Below, piece by piece: positions 5,432-23,723 of a stretch of 48,225 nt of DNA. The stretch covers positions 1 to 48,225 of the forward strand of contig JAJZTZ010000003.1 of NCBI GenBank assembly GCA_021847305.1, in the 5' to 3' direction. The first letter of the stretch is position 1; every line of letters begins with the position of its first letter. The position numbers and the translations under genes were made by a program. The DNA comes from Pseudomonadota bacterium (GTDB lineage: Bacteria; Pseudomonadota; Gammaproteobacteria; Burkholderiales; JAJZQI01). Below the pieces are notes generated by a model. The model did no database searches. It saw only the letters and a list, made by a program, of their open reading frames with translations, and was not told the DNA's origin.

Positions 5432-5591
5432 TTAAGCAAGCGCTGATTTATTCCATTTATGGAATAAATCAGCAGGGCGGCTGCGCGGCACATGTCCGCA
5501 CAGCCTCACACTTTCAATGACTTGCGTCATTGAGCGGCCGGGCGAGAAATCTGCCCGGCACGGAAACGCAAATAAATCAGCGTTTCCTTAA
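5432..5591 (-). repeat. Palindromic intergenic repeat, copy A (full length, inverted)
   Basis: Read on the minus strand it matches copy C (23567-23723) over the full ~157 bp with roughly 14 substitutions by hand alignment. Ends are inverted AAGGAAACGCTGATTTA / TAAATCAGCGCTTGCTT. Inside are GGAAACGC...GCGTTTCC, CCGGGC...GCCCGG, TCAATGAC-GCAA-GTCATTGA, GGCTGTGCGG...CCGCGCAGCC, and a 15-bp perfect stem GCTGATTTATTCCAT/ATGGAATAAATCAGC. No coding capacity. Confidence 0.85.
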
Positions 5592-5617: not shown

Positions 5618-7519
5618 TCAGTCCAGTTTACCCAGCGGGATATAGCCGACCATGCCGCGCTTGTCGACGTGGCTGGCCATATCCTCGCGGATTTCCACCG
5701 GATACTTGCTCAGATCGTCGTCCGCTCCCGGATGCTGCACATTGGCCATGAGGTAGGCATAACCATCCGCCGTGACCACCGGAGCAAGGCCGGTCCATTC
5801 CGCGCCGATGGGCGCCGTGGCAAGGCGGGTCAGCTGACCGGAAACGGTATTGTAGGCCCACAGCATGTTGTTGAGATGGTTGCCGCTGTCTTCGCCGATG
5901 AACAGAGTGCGCATTTGTGGCGAATACTTGATGTTGTCGGGATTGCCGATGCGCTCCGGATCGCACTTGTCGTGACTGTCAGCCACCGGGTTGGGCCTGC
6001 CGGTCAGCAACGCGCGGGTAGCGCCTGCCACCCAGCGGCTGTTGATCGGTTTGCCGAGCATGTCGCGCGCCTGCGGCTGCAACGAAGACGCGTAAACGAC
6101 GCCGCAGGCAAGCGCGCCATCCGGATCGGACAGGGAAATATCGTTCTGCGGCCGTTCGCCGTTCTTGCCGGTTGGCATACCGCCCTCGGCGTACGACACG
6201 GCAAAGTACAGCTGCCGGTCAGCCGGATTGGAGGTCAAGCCTTCCATTTTGCTGAATTCGGTCGTTGCACCCAGGTAGGCCGCATAACGACGGGTTTCCA
6301 GGAATGCGGCGGTTTTTTCCATACCGGGTTTGAGCTTCAGATATTCCAGACGGGTGACCCCGCCGGTGCCACCATAGACAAATACCGGGCGGTAGCCGGC
6401 AAAGCGCTGCGGATTCTGCTGATAGCCTTCGGCGGTAACGAAGTCGAAGATTTCAGAGAAGCGCAGCTTGCTGCGGATCATGGACCGCACCTCGGCATCG
6501 GTGGCGTGTCCCAGGCGAATCCACTGCAGATTAGCCTTGCCGCCGTTGCTGCCGTCAGTCTGGTTCCACTTGGCCGCGTACAGGGTACCCGAGGACAGGT
6601 CACCGGCACGATCAGCCACGTACATCCCCATCATCACATCACGCCCGTCGTCGCTCAGGTATACGGTACGCCGGTCAGGCATGACGGTGCCGAGTTCATG
6701 GGAAAAGCGCCCCATGGAATAGTGCTTGACGATGTGCCCTGCGCCCCGGCTATCGACCCGGACTTCGGTAATAAAGCCATAGGCGTAGGGATTGGCACCG
6801 CCATCGCGAGTCAGCTTGCCGGACGTGCCAAGATAGGCATTCATGGCTTCCAGCGGCACGCGTTCGAAATTGCGCGCATCCGGCTCATATTCCTCGCTGC
6901 CCAGGTGCGTATTCCAGGGAGTTTTCTCGCCGGCGCAAGGGGTCCACAGACCGTCCACCGATTTCATGTCGACATTTTTCAGGCTGACAGCCTGCAATGC
7001 GCCGCTGGCCGGGTCCTGCTTCAGTGTGGCTACGTTGATCGCCATGGGCAGCTTGCCGTACAGATTAACCCGGGCCGGTGCCGCGCCAGTAGCGGGAGCA
7101 TCGGTATCGTACTCGAAGTGCGTCACCAGATAGTAGGCCGACTGCTTGCCGTTGCGCTGCTCAATCAGCGAGTTGGAATCCGGTCCTTTGGCATAGAACG
7201 GCCCCTGCCCCTCATGCGCCGACTCATCATAGCTGGTCAGCATGAGCGGCTTGCCTTCCCGGTTGACGATCTGGCCGGCCGGCCAGCCGCCCACCACGTC
7301 GCCGGAGTGGTAGAGCACGTGATAGGCCAACGGCAGGCTGCGCGCTGCGCCGTCCGCTCCGGTCACGCTGACACTGGCGCTGCTGTGTACCCGGGTCATT
7401 TCACTGGCACCGCTGGGCAGGGATGAGGGGGCAAAGCTCACCTCGGCCCCCTGCGCTGTGACACTGCACAGGGCCAGCAGGGCGGCGGTCAGGGGCTTGA
7501 GCATGATGCGTGATTTCAT
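5618..7519 (-). CDS. PhoX-like (DUF839) exported phosphatase
   Basis: PhoX enzymes are Ca/Fe-dependent alkaline phosphatases that release phosphate from organic esters outside the cytoplasm. Here a Sec-type signal peptide (MKSRIMLKPLTAALLALCSVTAQGA) precedes a 600-aa mature protein. The family hallmark TPCAGEKTPWNTHLGSEEYE is at ~193-212, followed by beta-propeller-like segments (GRDVMMGMYVADRAGDLSSGTLYAAKW; LFIGEDSGNHLNNMLW). Canonical PhoX is exported by Tat; no twin-arginine motif is visible, so Sec export is inferred. It is the last gene of the exbD-tonB-receptor-exbB-phosphoesterase run, 30 bp after its neighbour. The substrate could be a phosphoester or another anionic ester. Confidence 0.85.
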   Translation of the reverse strand: MKSRIMLKPLTAALLALCSVTAQGAEVSFAPSSLPSGASEMTRVHSSASVSVTGADGAARSLPLAYHVLYHSGDVVGGWPAGQIVNREGKPLMLTSYDESAHEGQGPFYAKGPDSNSLIEQRNGKQSAYYLVTHFEYDTDAPATGAAPARVNLYGKLPMAINVATLKQDPASGALQAVSLKNVDMKSVDGLWTPCAGEKTPWNTHLGSEEYEPDARNFERVPLEAMNAYLGTSGKLTRDGGANPYAYGFITEVRVDSRGAGHIVKHYSMGRFSHELGTVMPDRRTVYLSDDGRDVMMGMYVADRAGDLSSGTLYAAKWNQTDGSNGGKANLQWIRLGHATDAEVRSMIRSKLRFSEIFDFVTAEGYQQNPQRFAGYRPVFVYGGTGGVTRLEYLKLKPGMEKTAAFLETRRYAAYLGATTEFSKMEGLTSNPADRQLYFAVSYAEGGMPTGKNGERPQNDISLSDPDGALACGVVYASSLQPQARDMLGKPINSRWVAGATRALLTGRPNPVADSHDKCDPERIGNPDNIKYSPQMRTLFIGEDSGNHLNNMLWAYNTVSGQLTRLATAPIGAEWTGLAPVVTADGYAYLMANVQHPGADDDLSKYPVEIREDMASHVDKRGMVGYIPLGKLD

Positions 7520-7549
7520 AAGGCAATACTTTCCAGACTGTCTTGTAGT

Positions 7550-9259
7550 TTACAACCCGCCCGCTGCCGGGCGGGAAAAATCGAACATATTCATCAGGTC
7601 ACCAATGGCCGGCCGATTCTCCGGCACATAAGGATTGGCTTTGCCATGCACCGGGTTGGGCAGATTGTCGCGGCTGCGCTGCGACAGGGTCGGCAAACCC
7701 CAGTTGCGTTCGATGAATTTAATGATCGAGGCATGATCGTAGTAGGTGTGGTCGATTTCGCCCTTGCGTGCGTAGGGCGATACAGCGATCAGCGGAATGC
7801 GTGTGCCGTCGCCGAAGAAATCGACGATCTGCACATAGCCGGAATCGTAGTAGCCGCCGCCTTCGTCAAAGGTCACGAGAATGGCGGTTTTCTTCCACAG
7901 TTCGGGATTGGACTGCACGCGCCGGACGATGTCCTGTACCAGCTCCTCGAAACCGGTTTCCATGGCATAACCGGGGTGACCGGATACGCTATCGTACGGG
8001 GCAATCACCGACACGGCCGGGAACGTTTTGGCGTTTTTCACATCGACATAGAAGCGTTGCAAATCCAGCAGTTTGCTCTTGTCCGGCCCGCTCATGGTGG
8101 AATGGAAGAACGTCTGCGTGTCACACATGCCACAGTATTCGCGGTCGGTCTTCTTGCCGTCATTGCGGCCACCGCTATACCACTTCCAGGACAGGCCGGC
8201 TTTGCTCATTGCATCGCCAATGCTGGGAATGATCTGCGGCGGCAGCAACCGGGTGCCCGGCCCCATCGGCAGCGAACGACCGTCTGCGGTATAGGATGGA
8301 TCGAGGTTGTTGACCATGTAATAGGCCCCCTCGGCACAGTTGCCGTTGTTGAACAGCTTGTACGGCAGAGTGCTGATATAGGCATTGATGGCCGATACGC
8401 CGGCGGCGTTGGGGTCGGCACAGTTGAGATAGCTGCCGCCATTTTCCACCAGTTGCTTGCCGCCCTTGAGCACATGCAGCTGAGTCACCAGGTTGGCCGG
8501 CGGCACGCCCATTTTGCCGTTTTCGGTATAGAAAGCGACATCGGCAGACGCCAGGGCAAAATAATTCTGCGCCGTGCCGCCCATGATGGACTGGTGGTAA
8601 TTGTCCGCAATCGAATACTGTTCAGCCAGCTTTTTGAAATACGGCGCGTCGCCCTGCGCCATGTTGTAAAAACCCATGGCAACGGCGCCCTGATAGGTCG
8701 GCACGGACTCCACCTGATCGACCTTATCGCCCAGATAAAAGCCGAAATGGTCGGCAGTCCAGACAAACAGATCGTTCTTACCGCCATTCACCTGCTGCCA
8801 CATCTGCAGGAAGCGGTGGATCGGATCCCCCGTATGCGCGCCATAGCTGACGTACTTGGTAATCTGGAACGGTCCGTTGGCAAGCTGCTGCGGGAATCGC
8901 GCATCCGGCACATCGTGCTGCTGGCCGAAAGCACCGGCGGCGTAGGGCTGCGGCAAAGATGCGTAATCGCCGGTAATGCGCGGCGTCGGACTGTAACCCT
9001 GGCTGGCATCGGCGGTGCGTTGCATGGCCAGATGATAGTTGGGCCCCGGTGTGCCATCGCTATTTACAATGCCGCGCGACAGGAGGTTCCATACTGTCTG
9101 CCCCTTGGGCGGCTGATACACGCCGTAGAGATTATCGAAGGTGCGGTTCTCCCCCACCACCACAATGACGTGTTCGATCGGCGTTTGCGCCTTGGGGGCG
9201 GCAAGCGCCACAAGCGGCGACAAAGCCAGGACAACAGCCGTTGCAATTCGTGACAGCAT
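7550..9259 (-). CDS. Secreted phosphoesterase, phospholipase C/acid phosphatase family (PF04185 type)
   Basis: The family hydrolyses phosphate mono- or diesters and includes bacterial phospholipases C and AcpA-type acid phosphatases. Motifs in order: VIVVVGENRTFDNLYGVY just after the signal peptide (MLSRIATAVVLALSPLVALA), then TFDEGGGYYD, RIPLIAVSPYA and YYDHASIIKFIERNWGLP near the end, all typical of the metal/phosphate site. The ORF-track TTG at 9280 is rejected: ATG 9259 is preceded by AAAGAGAGAG at good spacing and gives a clean signal peptide. It sits 30 bp downstream of exbB and 30 bp upstream of PhoX. Choosing between phospholipase and phosphatase needs biochemistry. Confidence 0.88.
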   Translation of the reverse strand: MLSRIATAVVLALSPLVALAAPKAQTPIEHVIVVVGENRTFDNLYGVYQPPKGQTVWNLLSRGIVNSDGTPGPNYHLAMQRTADASQGYSPTPRITGDYASLPQPYAAGAFGQQHDVPDARFPQQLANGPFQITKYVSYGAHTGDPIHRFLQMWQQVNGGKNDLFVWTADHFGFYLGDKVDQVESVPTYQGAVAMGFYNMAQGDAPYFKKLAEQYSIADNYHQSIMGGTAQNYFALASADVAFYTENGKMGVPPANLVTQLHVLKGGKQLVENGGSYLNCADPNAAGVSAINAYISTLPYKLFNNGNCAEGAYYMVNNLDPSYTADGRSLPMGPGTRLLPPQIIPSIGDAMSKAGLSWKWYSGGRNDGKKTDREYCGMCDTQTFFHSTMSGPDKSKLLDLQRFYVDVKNAKTFPAVSVIAPYDSVSGHPGYAMETGFEELVQDIVRRVQSNPELWKKTAILVTFDEGGGYYDSGYVQIVDFFGDGTRIPLIAVSPYARKGEIDHTYYDHASIIKFIERNWGLPTLSQRSRDNLPNPVHGKANPYVPENRPAIGDLMNMFDFSRPAAGGL

Positions 9260-9289
9260 GGACACTCTCTCTTTAGACAAAATTGACTG

Positions 9290-9892
9290 TTAACGCGCAC
9301 CCAGCAGAGTCAGCGTGATCAGCTTCATCTGATTGGTCACTTCTTCGGCTTTGCTGGTGAAATAGTTGAAGAACAACATGGCATACAGGGCAATAAAAAT
9401 ACCCACGCCGGTGGCGTACAGCGCCGTACCGATGCCGCGGCTCACCGCCGCCGGATCAGCTGCCACGCTGCCGGAAGACAGGCTGTAGAACGCGTCGATA
9501 ATACCGAGAATGGTGCCCATCAGGCCCAGCAACGGGGACAGGGTGACGATGGTATCGAGGATCCACAGCCGGGAGATCACTTTCGGCTGTTTGTCTACGT
9601 AAATCGATTGAGCGATGTATTCCATCTGCTCATGGCCATGGTTTTCCTTGGCCGCTTCAACCACCTCGCAGATCGCCTCGGCCTGCGGGCTTTTGTGTGA
9701 GCGGAACGCGTCGAGAATCTCGCCGTGCAAGGTCTTGTCGTGCAGGTGACTGCGCACGAAACTCACCACATCCTTGCCTTCACGCAGGATGGTGGAGAAA
9801 AAAATCATTCGTTCGATGATGAGATAAGTTGCGAGCAGAATTACTCCGCCCATGATGTACATCACGATGTCGTGAATCAGAGTGAACGTCAT
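9290..9892 (-). CDS. exbB: ExbB-like proton channel subunit (MotA/TolQ/ExbB family)
   Basis: ExbB forms the inner-membrane pentamer that, with ExbD, uses the proton gradient to drive TonB. The 200-aa protein has an N-terminal membrane segment (~8-28), a cytoplasmic loop, and two C-terminal helices including the family block LWILDTIVTLSPLLGLMGTILGIIDAF and the following GIGTALYATGVGIFIALYAMLFFNYF. Unusually it is separated from exbD by tonB and the receptor gene. An intrinsic terminator lies just before it. Its SD (AAGGA) follows the terminator's T-run directly. TolQ is unlikely because no tol genes are nearby. Confidence 0.88.
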   Translation of the reverse strand: MTFTLIHDIVMYIMGGVILLATYLIIERMIFFSTILREGKDVVSFVRSHLHDKTLHGEILDAFRSHKSPQAEAICEVVEAAKENHGHEQMEYIAQSIYVDKQPKVISRLWILDTIVTLSPLLGLMGTILGIIDAFYSLSSGSVAADPAAVSRGIGTALYATGVGIFIALYAMLFFNYFTSKAEEVTNQMKLITLTLLGAR

Positions 9893-9906
9893 GCCAAAAA
9901 TCCTTG

Positions 9907-9934
9907 AAAAAACCGGAACCCTTGCGGGTTCCGG
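9907..9934 (-). terminator. Intrinsic terminator inside the locus, between receptor and exbB
   Basis: On the minus strand CCGGAACCC and GGGTTCCGG form a perfect 9-bp stem with a 4-nt loop, followed by TTTTTTCAAGGA. It begins about 10 nt after the receptor stop codon (9944), and its tail merges with the exbB ribosome-binding site. Confidence 0.8.
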
Positions 9935-9943
9935 GCTGCTGCT

Positions 9944-12145
9944 TTAGAACTTGCCTGTTACGCTGAAGAACGCCATGCGGGGTGCGCCAGCCTGCAGGGT
10001 CTGGGTGGTGCCGTTCGGATCGGAGTAACCGTAGCCGTTGGTGCCCATGGAGGAGAAGTACTGCTTATTGAACAGGTTGTTCACGTTCAGCTGCGCTCTC
10101 ACTTCCTTGAACATGCCTACGTTGCGGGTCTTGTAGCCCACGCCCAGGTTCCAGATCCAGCGCGGATCAACGTAGTTGTCGTTGGAGTAGGTGTAGTAAC
10201 GCTTGGAGGTGTAGTCGCCACCCAGACGGGTGAACCAGGCACCATCGTCATACGCCAGTTCGGTCTTGAAGGTCTGCTCCGGCACGCCGACAACCTGCTT
10301 GCCACTCACATACTGCACAGTGGTACCGTTGAGGTAGTTGTCCTTGTACTGGGTGCTGTTTACGCTCAGGGCGTTGAACCACGACCAGTTGCGCGCCATC
10401 TTCCAGTTCAGGCCCAGATCGAAACCGTTGGACTCAACCTTGCCCACGTTGGCCAGCACGCTCGGGTTGCCGACGATACCGGCGCCGCTGCTGATGCTCA
10501 GCAGACGGTCGTAGAAGTCCACGTGGTACAAGGACAGCACACCGTCAAGCTTGTCGCCGTGGAAACGCCAGCCGCCTTCATAGGTAGTGGACGTTTCCGG
10601 GCGCAGATTGCCCTGAATGGCAGCAAAACCAGCCTGGGTAGTGCTGAACGGCTGGGTGTACAGCGCACGCATGTTCTGTGCGATACCGGCGAACAGTTCG
10701 TTGGACTGATCCAGCTTGTACACCATGCCCACCTGCGGCAGGAACGATTTCTTCGAGGTAATGGTACCGGACGGGTAGTTGGCACCGGTGGTTTCGTTGC
10801 CGGTCACATCAACGCGCGGCGACTTGAAGCCGACATTCACGGTCAGGCGCGGCGACACGGTGATGGTGTCCTGGGCAAACCACTGCAGGGTCTTTTCGGT
10901 GTAATTGAACGCCCAGTCGGTACGGAACGGATTGGACGGAATCACATACGGATCCAGCGCAGCAGCTGCCGTGTTCGCGTAGTAGCGACGGGCCTGATTG
11001 AATTTATCATTTTCATACCACAGGCCACCCTCGATCTTGTGCTTGTCCAGGGTATAGGTCAGTGTCGAGATCAAACCGCTGCGATTGATATCGTATTCGG
11101 TCGTACGGGTAGACGGAACGGTCGTGCCCGGGCTGAATACATACGGGGTCCACCACAAACCGGCACCGCGGTTGTTGTGGTTGTAAACAGTATTTTTCCA
11201 ACGCAGATGGTCGTTGATCTTGGCATCCAGGGTCACGCCGGACAGGTAATCGCGGCGCAGGCCAGAACCGGCATAGTAGGCATCATCCTTGGAGGTTTCG
11301 CCGCTGGTCCAGATACCGTTGGCGGAATCAATCGCCTTCTGCCAGTCCGGATAGTAGTTGTCCCAGTTGTAACCCAGACGGCTGGCCATTTCCTTGGACA
11401 GATCCTGGTAGTCGATTTCCTGACGGTCGGACCAGTTCAGGAAGGCGGACAGTTTGCTTTCACCGAAGAACTGCACGTATTTGGTGTTGATCTGCTTGTA
11501 ACGCTGCTCGCCGTGACCTTTCCACTTATCGGAATTCTGGTCCACGCCGCTGATGTAAAACTTGCCGCCGTTGCTCAGGCGACCGGTGTCCAGACGCACG
11601 AAGGTACGGCGTGCACTGTCGCTGCCCAGCATCTGGCTGGCGGTTACGCCAAACTCTTCTTCCGGATCGGTGGAGTAGAACTGCATGGTACCGCCCAGGT
11701 TACTGGTGGATGCGGTATCCAGCGAACCGGTACCCTGCGATACCTGCACGCGGCCGATGTTTTCGGAAGAAATCGCACGGGCAATGCTCAGACCGTTGTG
11801 GTTGCCGTAGCTCAGGTCACCCAGCGGAATATCGTCCAGGGTGTAACCAAGCTGGCTGGAACTGAAGCCGCGCACGCTCAGGTTGGTCGACCATTCATAG
11901 GCACCGTAGGTGTCGCTGGACTCGAAGTGCACACCCGGCACCTTGTCCAGCACTTTCAGCGGACTGCTGCCCGGTGCGGAATCCTCAATATCCTTTTTGG
12001 TGATGTTCTGCACCTGACGGGTCTGCCCCTGGCCGAACACGGTAATGTCTTCAGTCTGAACAGTATCGTCCTGCGCATAGGCGCTGCTGACCAGCGTGGC
12101 AGCGATCAGCACCGCCAGCGGACGTAAGCGAAACGCGTTACTCAT
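9944..12145 (-). CDS. TonB-dependent outer-membrane receptor
   Basis: A signal peptide (cleavage near AYA|QDD) is followed by a TonB-box-like EDITVFGQ at ~32-39. A plug domain follows (SPLKVLDKVPGVHFESSD...LSVRGFSSSQLGYTLDDIPL...IGRVQVSQGTGSLDTASTSNLGGTMQF), and then a long beta-barrel ending in an aromatic residue (FFSVTGKF). The length of 733 aa is typical. Such receptors import siderophores, vitamins, sugars or phosphorylated compounds with energy from TonB/ExbBD. Placed with two exported phosphoester hydrolases and behind a Pho-box-like promoter rather than a Fur box, it is inferred to take up a phosphate-containing compound or a product of the hydrolases. The ligand is unproven. Confidence 0.93.
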   Translation of the reverse strand: MSNAFRLRPLAVLIAATLVSSAYAQDDTVQTEDITVFGQGQTRQVQNITKKDIEDSAPGSSPLKVLDKVPGVHFESSDTYGAYEWSTNLSVRGFSSSQLGYTLDDIPLGDLSYGNHNGLSIARAISSENIGRVQVSQGTGSLDTASTSNLGGTMQFYSTDPEEEFGVTASQMLGSDSARRTFVRLDTGRLSNGGKFYISGVDQNSDKWKGHGEQRYKQINTKYVQFFGESKLSAFLNWSDRQEIDYQDLSKEMASRLGYNWDNYYPDWQKAIDSANGIWTSGETSKDDAYYAGSGLRRDYLSGVTLDAKINDHLRWKNTVYNHNNRGAGLWWTPYVFSPGTTVPSTRTTEYDINRSGLISTLTYTLDKHKIEGGLWYENDKFNQARRYYANTAAAALDPYVIPSNPFRTDWAFNYTEKTLQWFAQDTITVSPRLTVNVGFKSPRVDVTGNETTGANYPSGTITSKKSFLPQVGMVYKLDQSNELFAGIAQNMRALYTQPFSTTQAGFAAIQGNLRPETSTTYEGGWRFHGDKLDGVLSLYHVDFYDRLLSISSGAGIVGNPSVLANVGKVESNGFDLGLNWKMARNWSWFNALSVNSTQYKDNYLNGTTVQYVSGKQVVGVPEQTFKTELAYDDGAWFTRLGGDYTSKRYYTYSNDNYVDPRWIWNLGVGYKTRNVGMFKEVRAQLNVNNLFNKQYFSSMGTNGYGYSDPNGTTQTLQAGAPRMAFFSVTGKF

Positions 12146-12201
12146 CTAAAACCCCCTGATTAATTGGCACTTTTATAAATAAACCGGCATATGGCCGCCG
12201 G

Positions 12202-12900
12202 CTAGTAGTTGATGGAGAAGACCAGTTTGGTACGGAACTCTTTCTGGTTTTCACCAACCCAGGCGTCTGCCGGAAATGCAGCAAAAGAGGCAGAACGAAC
12301 GGCACGCAAAGCCGCCTGATCGAGCAGCGGATAACCCGATGACTTGGTTACTTCCGCGGAAACAAGTTTGCCGGTGCGATCCAGCACATAGAGAATCTCG
12401 ACCGCGCCGGCCATCCCCAGGTCGCGGGCGCTGTCGGGATATACCTTGTTGTGTTCGATTTGCGCGCGCACATCCTTGGCGAAGCGCCCCTCCGCGGCTG
12501 CATTACTCTGCGGCGGGCTGGGCGGTGCCGGCGGGATGGTTTTGGCTTCTGCGGCAACCGGCGCCACGGGCACGCTCACCGGGTTCGATTCCGGCACCGG
12601 TGAAGGCTTGGCCGCCACCGGAGTCACCGGTGTTTGCTTTACCGGTTCGGGCTTGCTTTCGTGATGCACAGGCTGGGGCGGTTTGGGCGGTTCAATTGGC
12701 TTGGGTGGCTCGACCGGTTTGGGCTGCTCTACCGGCGGTTCGGCCAGCGTGACCTCAATCGGCGTCTCCGGCGGCAAGGGATCATGGCGGATCGCCAAAT
12801 GGGTGATGGCGAACGCCAGCATGATCCCTGCCAGCATGGCGCCACCCTGGGCAAACCACTCGCGCTTGTCGTAAACCAGCGGAATTGCAACGGCTGTCAT
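12202..12900 (-). CDS. tonB: TonB energy transducer
   Basis: TonB spans the periplasm and transmits energy from ExbB/ExbD to receptors. The 232-aa protein has one N-terminal membrane helix (~19-38) with a THLA sequence resembling the conserved SHLS histidine site. A Pro/Glu/Lys-rich stretch (~42-130, PPKPIEPPKPPQP) follows, then a C-terminal domain with YPDSARDLGMAGAVEILYVLDRTGKL...SSGYPLLDQAALRAV. It lies 15 bp after exbD and 56 bp before the receptor, so it is probably dedicated to that receptor. A weak hairpin (CCGGC...GCCGG) follows the stop codon. Confidence 0.92.
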   Translation of the reverse strand: MTAVAIPLVYDKREWFAQGGAMLAGIMLAFAITHLAIRHDPLPPETPIEVTLAEPPVEQPKPVEPPKPIEPPKPPQPVHHESKPEPVKQTPVTPVAAKPSPVPESNPVSVPVAPVAAEAKTIPPAPPSPPQSNAAAEGRFAKDVRAQIEHNKVYPDSARDLGMAGAVEILYVLDRTGKLVSAEVTKSSGYPLLDQAALRAVRSASFAAFPADAWVGENQKEFRTKLVFSINY

Positions 12901-12915
12901 ATTCCCTCCTGTCCC

Positions 12916-13323
12916 TTATTTCCGGGCAGAAGCGATGGCAATGGAGGTAATGCCGGACGACTTGACCGTATCCATCACATCCACCAGTTGCTGTACCGAA
13001 GCATCGCGATCGCTGTTGACTACAACGTCTATGTCCTTGCCGCTTTGCTTGAGTTTCACCAGTTCCGCCTTAAGCGAGACCAGCGTCTGGTTCTGGCCGT
13101 CCAGCTGGATCACACCGCTCTTGCTCACGGTGACCACCACATGGACCCGCACATCGAGCTTTTCCGGCTGGCCAGCGGTCGGCAATTTGGTTTTGATTCC
13201 CAGCGCAGGTATCACGTGCAGACTGATCAGCACAAAGAACACCAGGAGAAACATCATCACGTCGATCATCGGGATGATTTCGATACGGGCCTTGCGGCGA
13301 GGCTCTTCGTGCCAGAACAACAT
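12916..13323 (-). CDS. exbD: ExbD-like biopolymer transport protein
   Basis: Partner of ExbB in proton-driven energisation of TonB. The 135-aa protein has a short cytoplasmic N-terminus, one membrane helix with the essential proton-path Asp in IPMIDVMMFLLVFFVL (D21), and a periplasmic domain with VVNSDRDASVQQLVDVMDTVKSSGITSIAIA. It is the first gene of the phosphate/TonB locus and has a good SD (AAGGA, 7 nt before ATG). Confidence 0.92.
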   Translation of the reverse strand: MLFWHEEPRRKARIEIIPMIDVMMFLLVFFVLISLHVIPALGIKTKLPTAGQPEKLDVRVHVVVTVSKSGVIQLDGQNQTLVSLKAELVKLKQSGKDIDVVVNSDRDASVQQLVDVMDTVKSSGITSIAIASARK

Positions 13324-13370: not shown

Positions 13371-13423
13371 GAGCGGCACTATATAAGCAAGTAATTACAT
13401 ACCGATTAACCTTTTATTTCATT

Positions 13424-13496: not shown

Positions 13497-13631
13497 TTAA
13501 GGAAGCACTGATTTAATCGCGCTTCCGTGCCGGGCAGATTTTTCGCCCGGTCGCTCAATGGCATTAGTCATTGAAAGCGTGAGGCCGTACGGACATGCGC
13601 CGCGCAGCCGCCTTAATCAGCACTTTCTTAA
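13497..13631 (+). repeat. Palindromic intergenic repeat, copy B (degenerate, shortened)
   Basis: Same element and orientation as copy C, inverted relative to copy A. The left end TTAAGGAAGCACTGATTTAATCGCGCTTCC is intact. The TCAATGgcattaGTCATTGA stem has decayed. The right-end 15-bp palindrome is missing, leaving CTTAATCAGCACTTTCTTAA. Confidence 0.8.
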
Positions 13632-23158: not shown

Positions 23159-23584
23159 ATGTCCATCCACTGCAAAATCAACCACCCCGTCAGCACCGAG
23201 TCGTTCGTCGATCTGTTGCATGCATCAGGTCTGGCAGCGCGCCGACCGGTGCATGACCGGGACTGCATGGAAGGCATGGTGAAAAACGCCAATCTGACCG
23301 TGACGGCATGGGATGGGGACAGACTGGTGGGAGTGGCACGGTCGCTGACCGACTTCCATTATGCCTGCTATCTATCCGACCTGGCCGTGCATGCCGATTA
23401 TCAGCAACAGGGCATTGGCAAACTGTTGCTGCGCACAACCCGGCAGCAACTGGGCCAGAAATGTAAACTGATCCTGATCGCCGCCCCGGCCGCCAACGAT
23501 TATTACGAACACCTGGGTTTTGCCAGCAATCCGCGGTGCTGGGTGCTGGACAGCGACAGTCCGCTCAAGGAAACGCTGATTTAA
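23159..23584 (+). CDS. GNAT-family N-acetyltransferase ending inside repeat copy C
   Basis: The 141-aa protein has the acetyl-CoA loop LSDLAVHADYQQQGIGKLLLRTTRQQLG and the C-terminal YYEHLGFASNPRCW, as in small GNAT proteins. Its last residues (KETLI) and the TAA stop are encoded by the left end of the palindromic repeat (AAGGAAACGCTGATTTAA). The native C-terminus was therefore probably altered or extended by repeat insertion. The substrate is unknown. Confidence 0.87.
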   Translation: MSIHCKINHPVSTESFVDLLHASGLAARRPVHDRDCMEGMVKNANLTVTAWDGDRLVGVARSLTDFHYACYLSDLAVHADYQQQGIGKLLLRTTRQQLGQKCKLILIAAPAANDYYEHLGFASNPRCWVLDSDSPLKETLI

Positions 23585-23723
23585 TCGCGTTTCCGTGCCG
23601 GGCAGGGTTTTCGTCCGGCCGCTCAATGACGCAAGTCATTGAAGGCGTGAGGTTGTGCGGACAGGTGCCGCGCAACCGACCCGCTGATTTATTCCATAAA
23701 TGGAATAAATCAGCGCTTCCTTA
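23567..23723 (+). repeat. Palindromic intergenic repeat, copy C (full length)
   Basis: 157 bp between two convergent genes with inverted ends AAGGAAACGCTGATTTA / TAAATCAGCGCTTCCTTA. Internal stems: GGAAACGC/GCGTTTCC; CCGGGC/GTCCGG with one G-T; TCAATGAC-GCAA-GTCATTGA (perfect 8 bp, GNRA loop); GGTTGTGCGG/CCGCGCAACC with one G-T; and GCTGATTTATTCCAT/ATGGAATAAATCAGC (perfect 15 bp). It provides the TAA of the acetyltransferase at its left end and the TAA of the cyclase at its right end. Confidence 0.88.

Follow-up and report, generated by a model that had tools for sequence, protein, structure and literature searches.

What does a TonB-dependent outer-membrane receptor import when it is encoded together with its own energising proteins and two predicted exported phosphoesterases? 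The question is raised by a run of six genes on the minus strand (5618-13323) of the window, the whole 48,225-nt stretch of betaproteobacterial DNA that was analysed.

The six genes and their products

ORFs and Pfam matches, with each of the six products scoring over its Pfam cut-off, place the genes in the transcription order exbD, tonB, receptor, exbB, PF04185 phosphoesterase and PhoX-like phosphatase, confirming the content, order and positions given in an initial annotation of the stretch. The run begins with exbD (12916..13323; PF02472, 97 bits), encoding a proton-channel partner, followed by tonB (12202..12900; PF03544, 58 bits), encoding an energy transducer with a proline-rich linker and a TonB_C domain, the receptor gene (9944..12145; PF07715 plug, 53 bits, and PF00593 barrel, 153 bits) and exbB (9290..9892; MotA_ExbB PF01618, 92 bits), encoding the proton-channel subunit. 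The last two genes encode the predicted exported enzymes, a PF04185 phosphoesterase of the acid phosphatase/phospholipase C superfamily (7550..9280; 206 bits) and the PhoX-like phosphatase (5618..7519; PF05787, 84 bits against a cut-off of 24). The spacing from each stop to the next start is ~9-56 bp, making co-transcription of the six genes plausible, and all six are under purifying selection relative to the same-genus genome G414 (dN/dS 0.029-0.118; exbD, 0.029; exbB, 0.041). NCBIfam provided at most broader or sub-threshold names, so that none of the products is a textbook equivalog, and no tRNA or Rfam family was detected in the window.

The MotA_ExbB, ExbD and TonB_C domains encoded together constitute an ExbB-ExbD-TonB energising set. 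Elsewhere the genome encodes two further TonB proteins over the cut-off (C114 and C84) and two receptors; the set in the operon is therefore an extra copy and, judging from its co-location, may serve the co-encoded receptor exclusively. The locus had been described as self-contained, which applies to the energisation of outer-membrane transport but not to Pi uptake, as pstS is located elsewhere in the genome. Another receptor of the same genome (L180 5026-10554, on contig C40) is followed by a PepSY-like membrane protein and a type I phosphodiesterase-like protein, both assigned by eye.

A strong, terminator-like hairpin with a T run (9913..9934, minus strand) lies between the receptor gene and exbB and, with differing stems, recurs at this place in all seven operons compared (the window, L065, L066, L067, L003, L071 and L073). 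The hairpin may lower the expression of exbB and the enzyme genes relative to the receptor, though damping of exbB would be unexpected, as ExbB normally outnumbers the other subunits of the complex.

Both enzymes start with a Sec-type signal sequence, as read by eye. The EN, H and D(D/E) motifs of the PF04185 protein align with those of AcpA (2d1g) and a phospholipase C (9gye), matching the catalytic E43-N44, H350 and D386 of AcpA with a glutamate in place of D387; the protein also aligns with phospholipase C at the Thr that follows the YHQSxMG motif of that enzyme. The protein thus has its fold family and active-site motifs in common with the AcpA/phospholipase C superfamily but falls below the NCBIfam cut-offs for both the phosphocholine-specific phospholipase C (TIGR03396; 128.6 bits, cut-off 580.25) and the Burkholderia-type acid phosphatase (TIGR03397; 194.6 bits, cut-off 362.75). 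Within PF05787 the PhoX-like protein is divergent (nearest solved PhoX, 3zwu/4amf, at E 2e-8), and it has no NCBIfam match. It shares CA..KTPW.T.L..EE and GRF.HE with PhoX 3zwu, and the region around Cys179 is retained, as are the paired Glu and the HE motif; Cys179 and the acidic motifs are presumably metal ligands in 3zwu. Characterised PhoX members carry a twin-arginine leader, whereas the leader here, MKSRIMLKPLTAALLALCSVTAQGAEV, is Sec-type without an RR motif. With these active-site motifs aligned, phosphoesterase activity is plausible for both proteins.

The receptor N-terminus, ...AYAQDDTVQTEDITVFGQG, reads directly as a signal peptide and TonB box, conserved in the family consensus; the likely TonB box is EDITVFG and there is no N-terminal signalling domain. 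An AlphaFold model built from 20 relatives (pLDDT 77.6, pTM 0.83) is closest to PiuA, PqqU/YncD and FecA in Foldseek, at 15-17% identity, so that the fold does not identify the ligand, and no sequence relative occurs in the PDB at E<=0.001. Siderophore receptors make up most of the top Foldseek matches, where PqqU/YncD also appears, and the best NCBIfam match is the TonB-dependent siderophore receptor (TIGR01783) at 123.7 bits, below the cut-off of 223.5. These likenesses would fit a siderophore or metal receptor importing an iron chelate, with phosphatases that either profit from the iron (PhoX and PhoD use Fe and Ca) or are chance neighbours.

Gene order and hydrolase neighbours in relatives

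The identical six-gene order, for which the initial annotation had suggested searching, is present in the same-genus G414 (L002/L065) and in G546 (L067). L003 (Sulfurimicrobium), L071 and L073 have exbD-tonB-receptor-exbB-PF04185 with no PhoX gene; in L066 exbD, receptor, exbB and PF04185 gene are matched and a TonB domain lies upstream of the receptor. With the order conserved in these six loci besides the window, the arrangement is not due to chance. The core is exbD-tonB-receptor-exbB-PF04185, and the PhoX gene, missing from most orthologous operons, is a variable accessory; the pair of hydrolases had previously been taken as a fixed feature of the system and is not one. Directly upstream of exbD, G414 possesses a further set (L002 3050-7627) behind a Pho-box-like promoter (score 9.7 in the model described below), which comprises a second TonB, a PhoD-type phosphatase and a second, distantly related receptor (27% identity); the PhoD gene had no match in the window's genome, which is 85% complete.

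A first search of sequenced species returned 19 loci with receptor relatives at 45-91% identity, and later searches added further loci. In a survey of the genes adjoining 35 members of the receptor family, a phosphoester hydrolase was present no more than two genes away in 19 (18 by phmmer and one, phytase-like, by Pfam). These hydrolases span eight Pfam families: PF04185, PF05787 (PhoX), PF09423 (PhoD), PF00245 (PhoA), PF00149 (calcineurin-like), PF03009 (GDPD), PF01663 (type I phosphodiesterase) and PF13449 (phytase-like). Beside 18 distant control receptors these probes detected no such enzyme, a comparison that favours the test set because the probes were derived from the test loci; no phosphoesterase was among the 25 commonest Pfam families of 53 control neighbours. 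On a maximum-likelihood tree of the receptors the type of neighbour is clustered yet labile, with 12 changes between four labels (shuffled mean, 19.1), and the many changes indicate that the linkage to hydrolases was gained or lost repeatedly. Frequent receptors without phosphatases, named at the outset as evidence against the system, are not seen in the close clade (0/5), but ~16/35 of the wider relatives lack a phosphoester hydrolase next to them.

Viewed from the enzyme side, the link between receptor and hydrolase is weaker. Of 300 genomes of the order, 20 have relatives of the PF04185 protein and 28 have PhoX relatives, in most cases with the receptor not nearby. Such receptor-free homologues are what would be expected if receptor and enzymes were uncoupled, the receptor doing something else within a Pho-regulated cluster, an explanation rendered highly improbable by the PF04185 gene adjoining exbB in 5/5 of the closest receptor loci (receptors 71-100% identical) and by the independent, repeated pairing of the receptor family with other hydrolases.

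Beyond the phosphoester hydrolases, several receptor relatives have other kinds of neighbours. In a sister clade (L005, L006 7456-13089 and L070 7468-12385, the L070 genes assigned by eye) they lie between a choline sulfatase (PF12411) and OpuAC-type (betaine/choline) ABC genes, a setting that suggests a choline-sulfate TonB receptor. Relatives in two Zoogloeaceae MAGs (L017 1348-7409 and L020 591-9353) are accompanied by peptide-type ABC genes and no phosphatase, with an ExbD-TonB-ExbB set of the same type as in the window operon, while others neighbour polyamine-type ABC binding proteins. Two relatives are located close to a gene for an OprO/OprP-type phosphate-selective porin (PF07396; tested in L081 13610-14746, and in L082 12810-13913 assigned by sequence similarity).

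This diversity of neighbours, including choline sulfatase, the OpuAC-type, polyamine-type and peptide-type binding proteins and GDPD, and the kinship of the PF04185 enzyme to phospholipase C are the grounds for supposing that the receptor imports small charged compounds, phosphate or sulfate esters of choline, glycerol and other such head groups, and that these serve chiefly as sources of carbon, nitrogen or osmolytes, liberated phosphate being a side benefit. We consider this unlikely for the window operon, in which Pfam detects no choline, polyamine or peptide transporter and whose clade has Pho boxes that are absent from the choline sulfatase and peptide-ABC loci. A broader and rather speculative possibility, to which we give low credence, is that the whole family consists of proteobacterial TonB receptors that scavenge phospholipid-type head-group esters (glycerophosphodiesters, phosphocholine, choline sulfate) with fitting phospho- or sulfo-esterase partners, one lineage of which gained ExbBD-TonB and Pho-box control.

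Predicted Pho boxes upstream of the operon

A predicted Pho box with a -10 element (13378..13411, minus strand; GGTTAAT CGGT ATGTAAT TACTTGCTTA TATAGT) lies 88 bp upstream of exbD. It was scored with a 34-bp model of two 7-bp half sites, a 4-bp gap, a 10-bp spacer and the -10, trained on eight pstS promoters, with sites picked by eye, from seven of the genomes in the operon survey, all seven of which possess pstS. The local pstS-trained model performed better than an unmodified E. coli Pho-box consensus, which was dropped as too degenerate. Left-out pstS promoters were recovered at p <= 0.03. The exbD promoter of the window scores 7.6 (shuffle p 0.053) and ranks first among the 32 window promoters. 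Among relatives, exbD promoters score 15.7 (L077), 15.3 (L071), 12.0 (L003), 8.0 (L067), 5.2 (L073) and 3.4 (L065), in addition to a doubtful, AT-rich 9.3 in L066; the box is positioned as in the window in G546 (8.0) and, weakly, in G414 (3.4). Outside exbD, high scores were obtained at the receptor promoter of L004 (15.2) and at the PF04185 gene of L068 and L069 (9.0 and 12.4). Elsewhere 14 of 211 promoters score >=7.6, including six training pstS promoters and five of phosphatases. Neither the loci with choline sulfatase or peptide-ABC genes nor the SulP, CstA and AurF neighbours in the window scored in the model. A search for Fur boxes returned none that was convincing, the best matches to the consensus covering 9-13 of 19 positions.

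Based on these promoter sequences, Pho control of the operon is likely, though the window's own box is weak. Phosphate is the likelier inducer than iron, given the repeated linkage of the receptor family to hydrolases and the pstS-type Pho boxes before several of the operons. The import of an iron chelate, despite the resemblance of the receptor to siderophore receptors, is accordingly a distinctly unlikely function: predicted Pho boxes are present where a convincing Fur box is not, and the neighbours of the family include PhoA and GDPD, which are not known to need iron, as well as choline sulfatase.

The locus is probably a PhoB-controlled phosphorus-scavenging operon. In outline this is how it had first been interpreted, and the hydrolase linkage (19/35 against 0/18) and the Pho boxes uphold that outline without two hydrolases as a constant feature. 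A large substrate such as phytate or polyphosphate, also suggested at the outset, is a speculative extension of it. When Pi is scarce, PhoB would bind its box ahead of exbD and turn on transcription of the operon; at the cell surface the receptor would capture an organic phosphoester present at low concentration and, as predicted from family membership, be opened by the co-encoded ExbB-ExbD-TonB set and the proton motive force, admitting the compound to the periplasm. Hydrolysis there of phosphodiester or phosphomonoester bonds may fall to the PF04185 enzyme, and removal of the terminal phosphate to the PhoX-like enzyme where present, with the freed Pi presumably entering through the PstSCAB encoded elsewhere.

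Known systems and flanking repeats

Several bacteria have been reported to combine TonB-dependent transport with phosphoester hydrolysis. The PUS (PusCD) of Flavobacterium and other Bacteroidetes are Pi-repressed TonB transporters beside phosphomono- and diesterases, with a proposed role in the import of organic phosphorus (PMC8115612). The window operon likewise pairs a TonB-dependent transporter with phosphoesterases. PUS I and II are SusC/SusD pairs, whereas none of the six genes encodes a SusD-type partner; unlike PUS, the window operon includes ExbD, TonB and ExbB, and its host is a betaproteobacterium. The PhoB regulon of Caulobacter comprises TonB receptors, phosphatases and phospholipase C, the receptors being suggested to serve alternative phosphate donors (PMC11208175); the likeness to the window operon, for which PhoB control is predicted, is drawn from that regulon-level description. 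In Xanthomonas, XanT-XanP, a TonB-dependent transporter and a phosphodiesterase on one transcript, imports and hydrolyses a sugar phosphodiester (PMC12807533), which is made through an effector. Compared by description, XanP is a 2H phosphoesterase, in contrast to the PF04185 and PhoX-like enzymes of the window operon.

The operon is a betaproteobacterial variant of an organophosphate-scavenging strategy already reported in other bacteria. The initial annotation considered the system little-described; the concept has been published in other phyla, while for the exbD-tonB-receptor-exbB-PF04185 form of the operon in Betaproteobacteria no description was found in the open-licence literature. For phosphorus-starved Proteobacteria, the way in which organic phosphorus crosses the outer membrane is mostly a matter of inference, and a substrate has been assigned to few organophosphate TonB receptors. 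Packing a receptor, its engine, the enzymes and a switch into 7.7 kb, the operon offers a compact test case, and the lineage-varying hydrolase partners of the receptor family could aid in mapping its substrate range.

A dispersed repeat of ~157 bp, ending in CGCTGATTTATTCC palindromes, occurs in the window at 5433-5591, 13497-13612 and 23567-23723, the first two copies of which happen to flank the operon. A composite transposon bounded by inverted repeats was considered and rejected: the window genome contains about 40 matches to the repeat, the same-genus genome contains 8, and relatives keep the gene order without repeats there, so that the repeats are no marker of a mobile operon. The repeat looks like a MITE/REP-type element.
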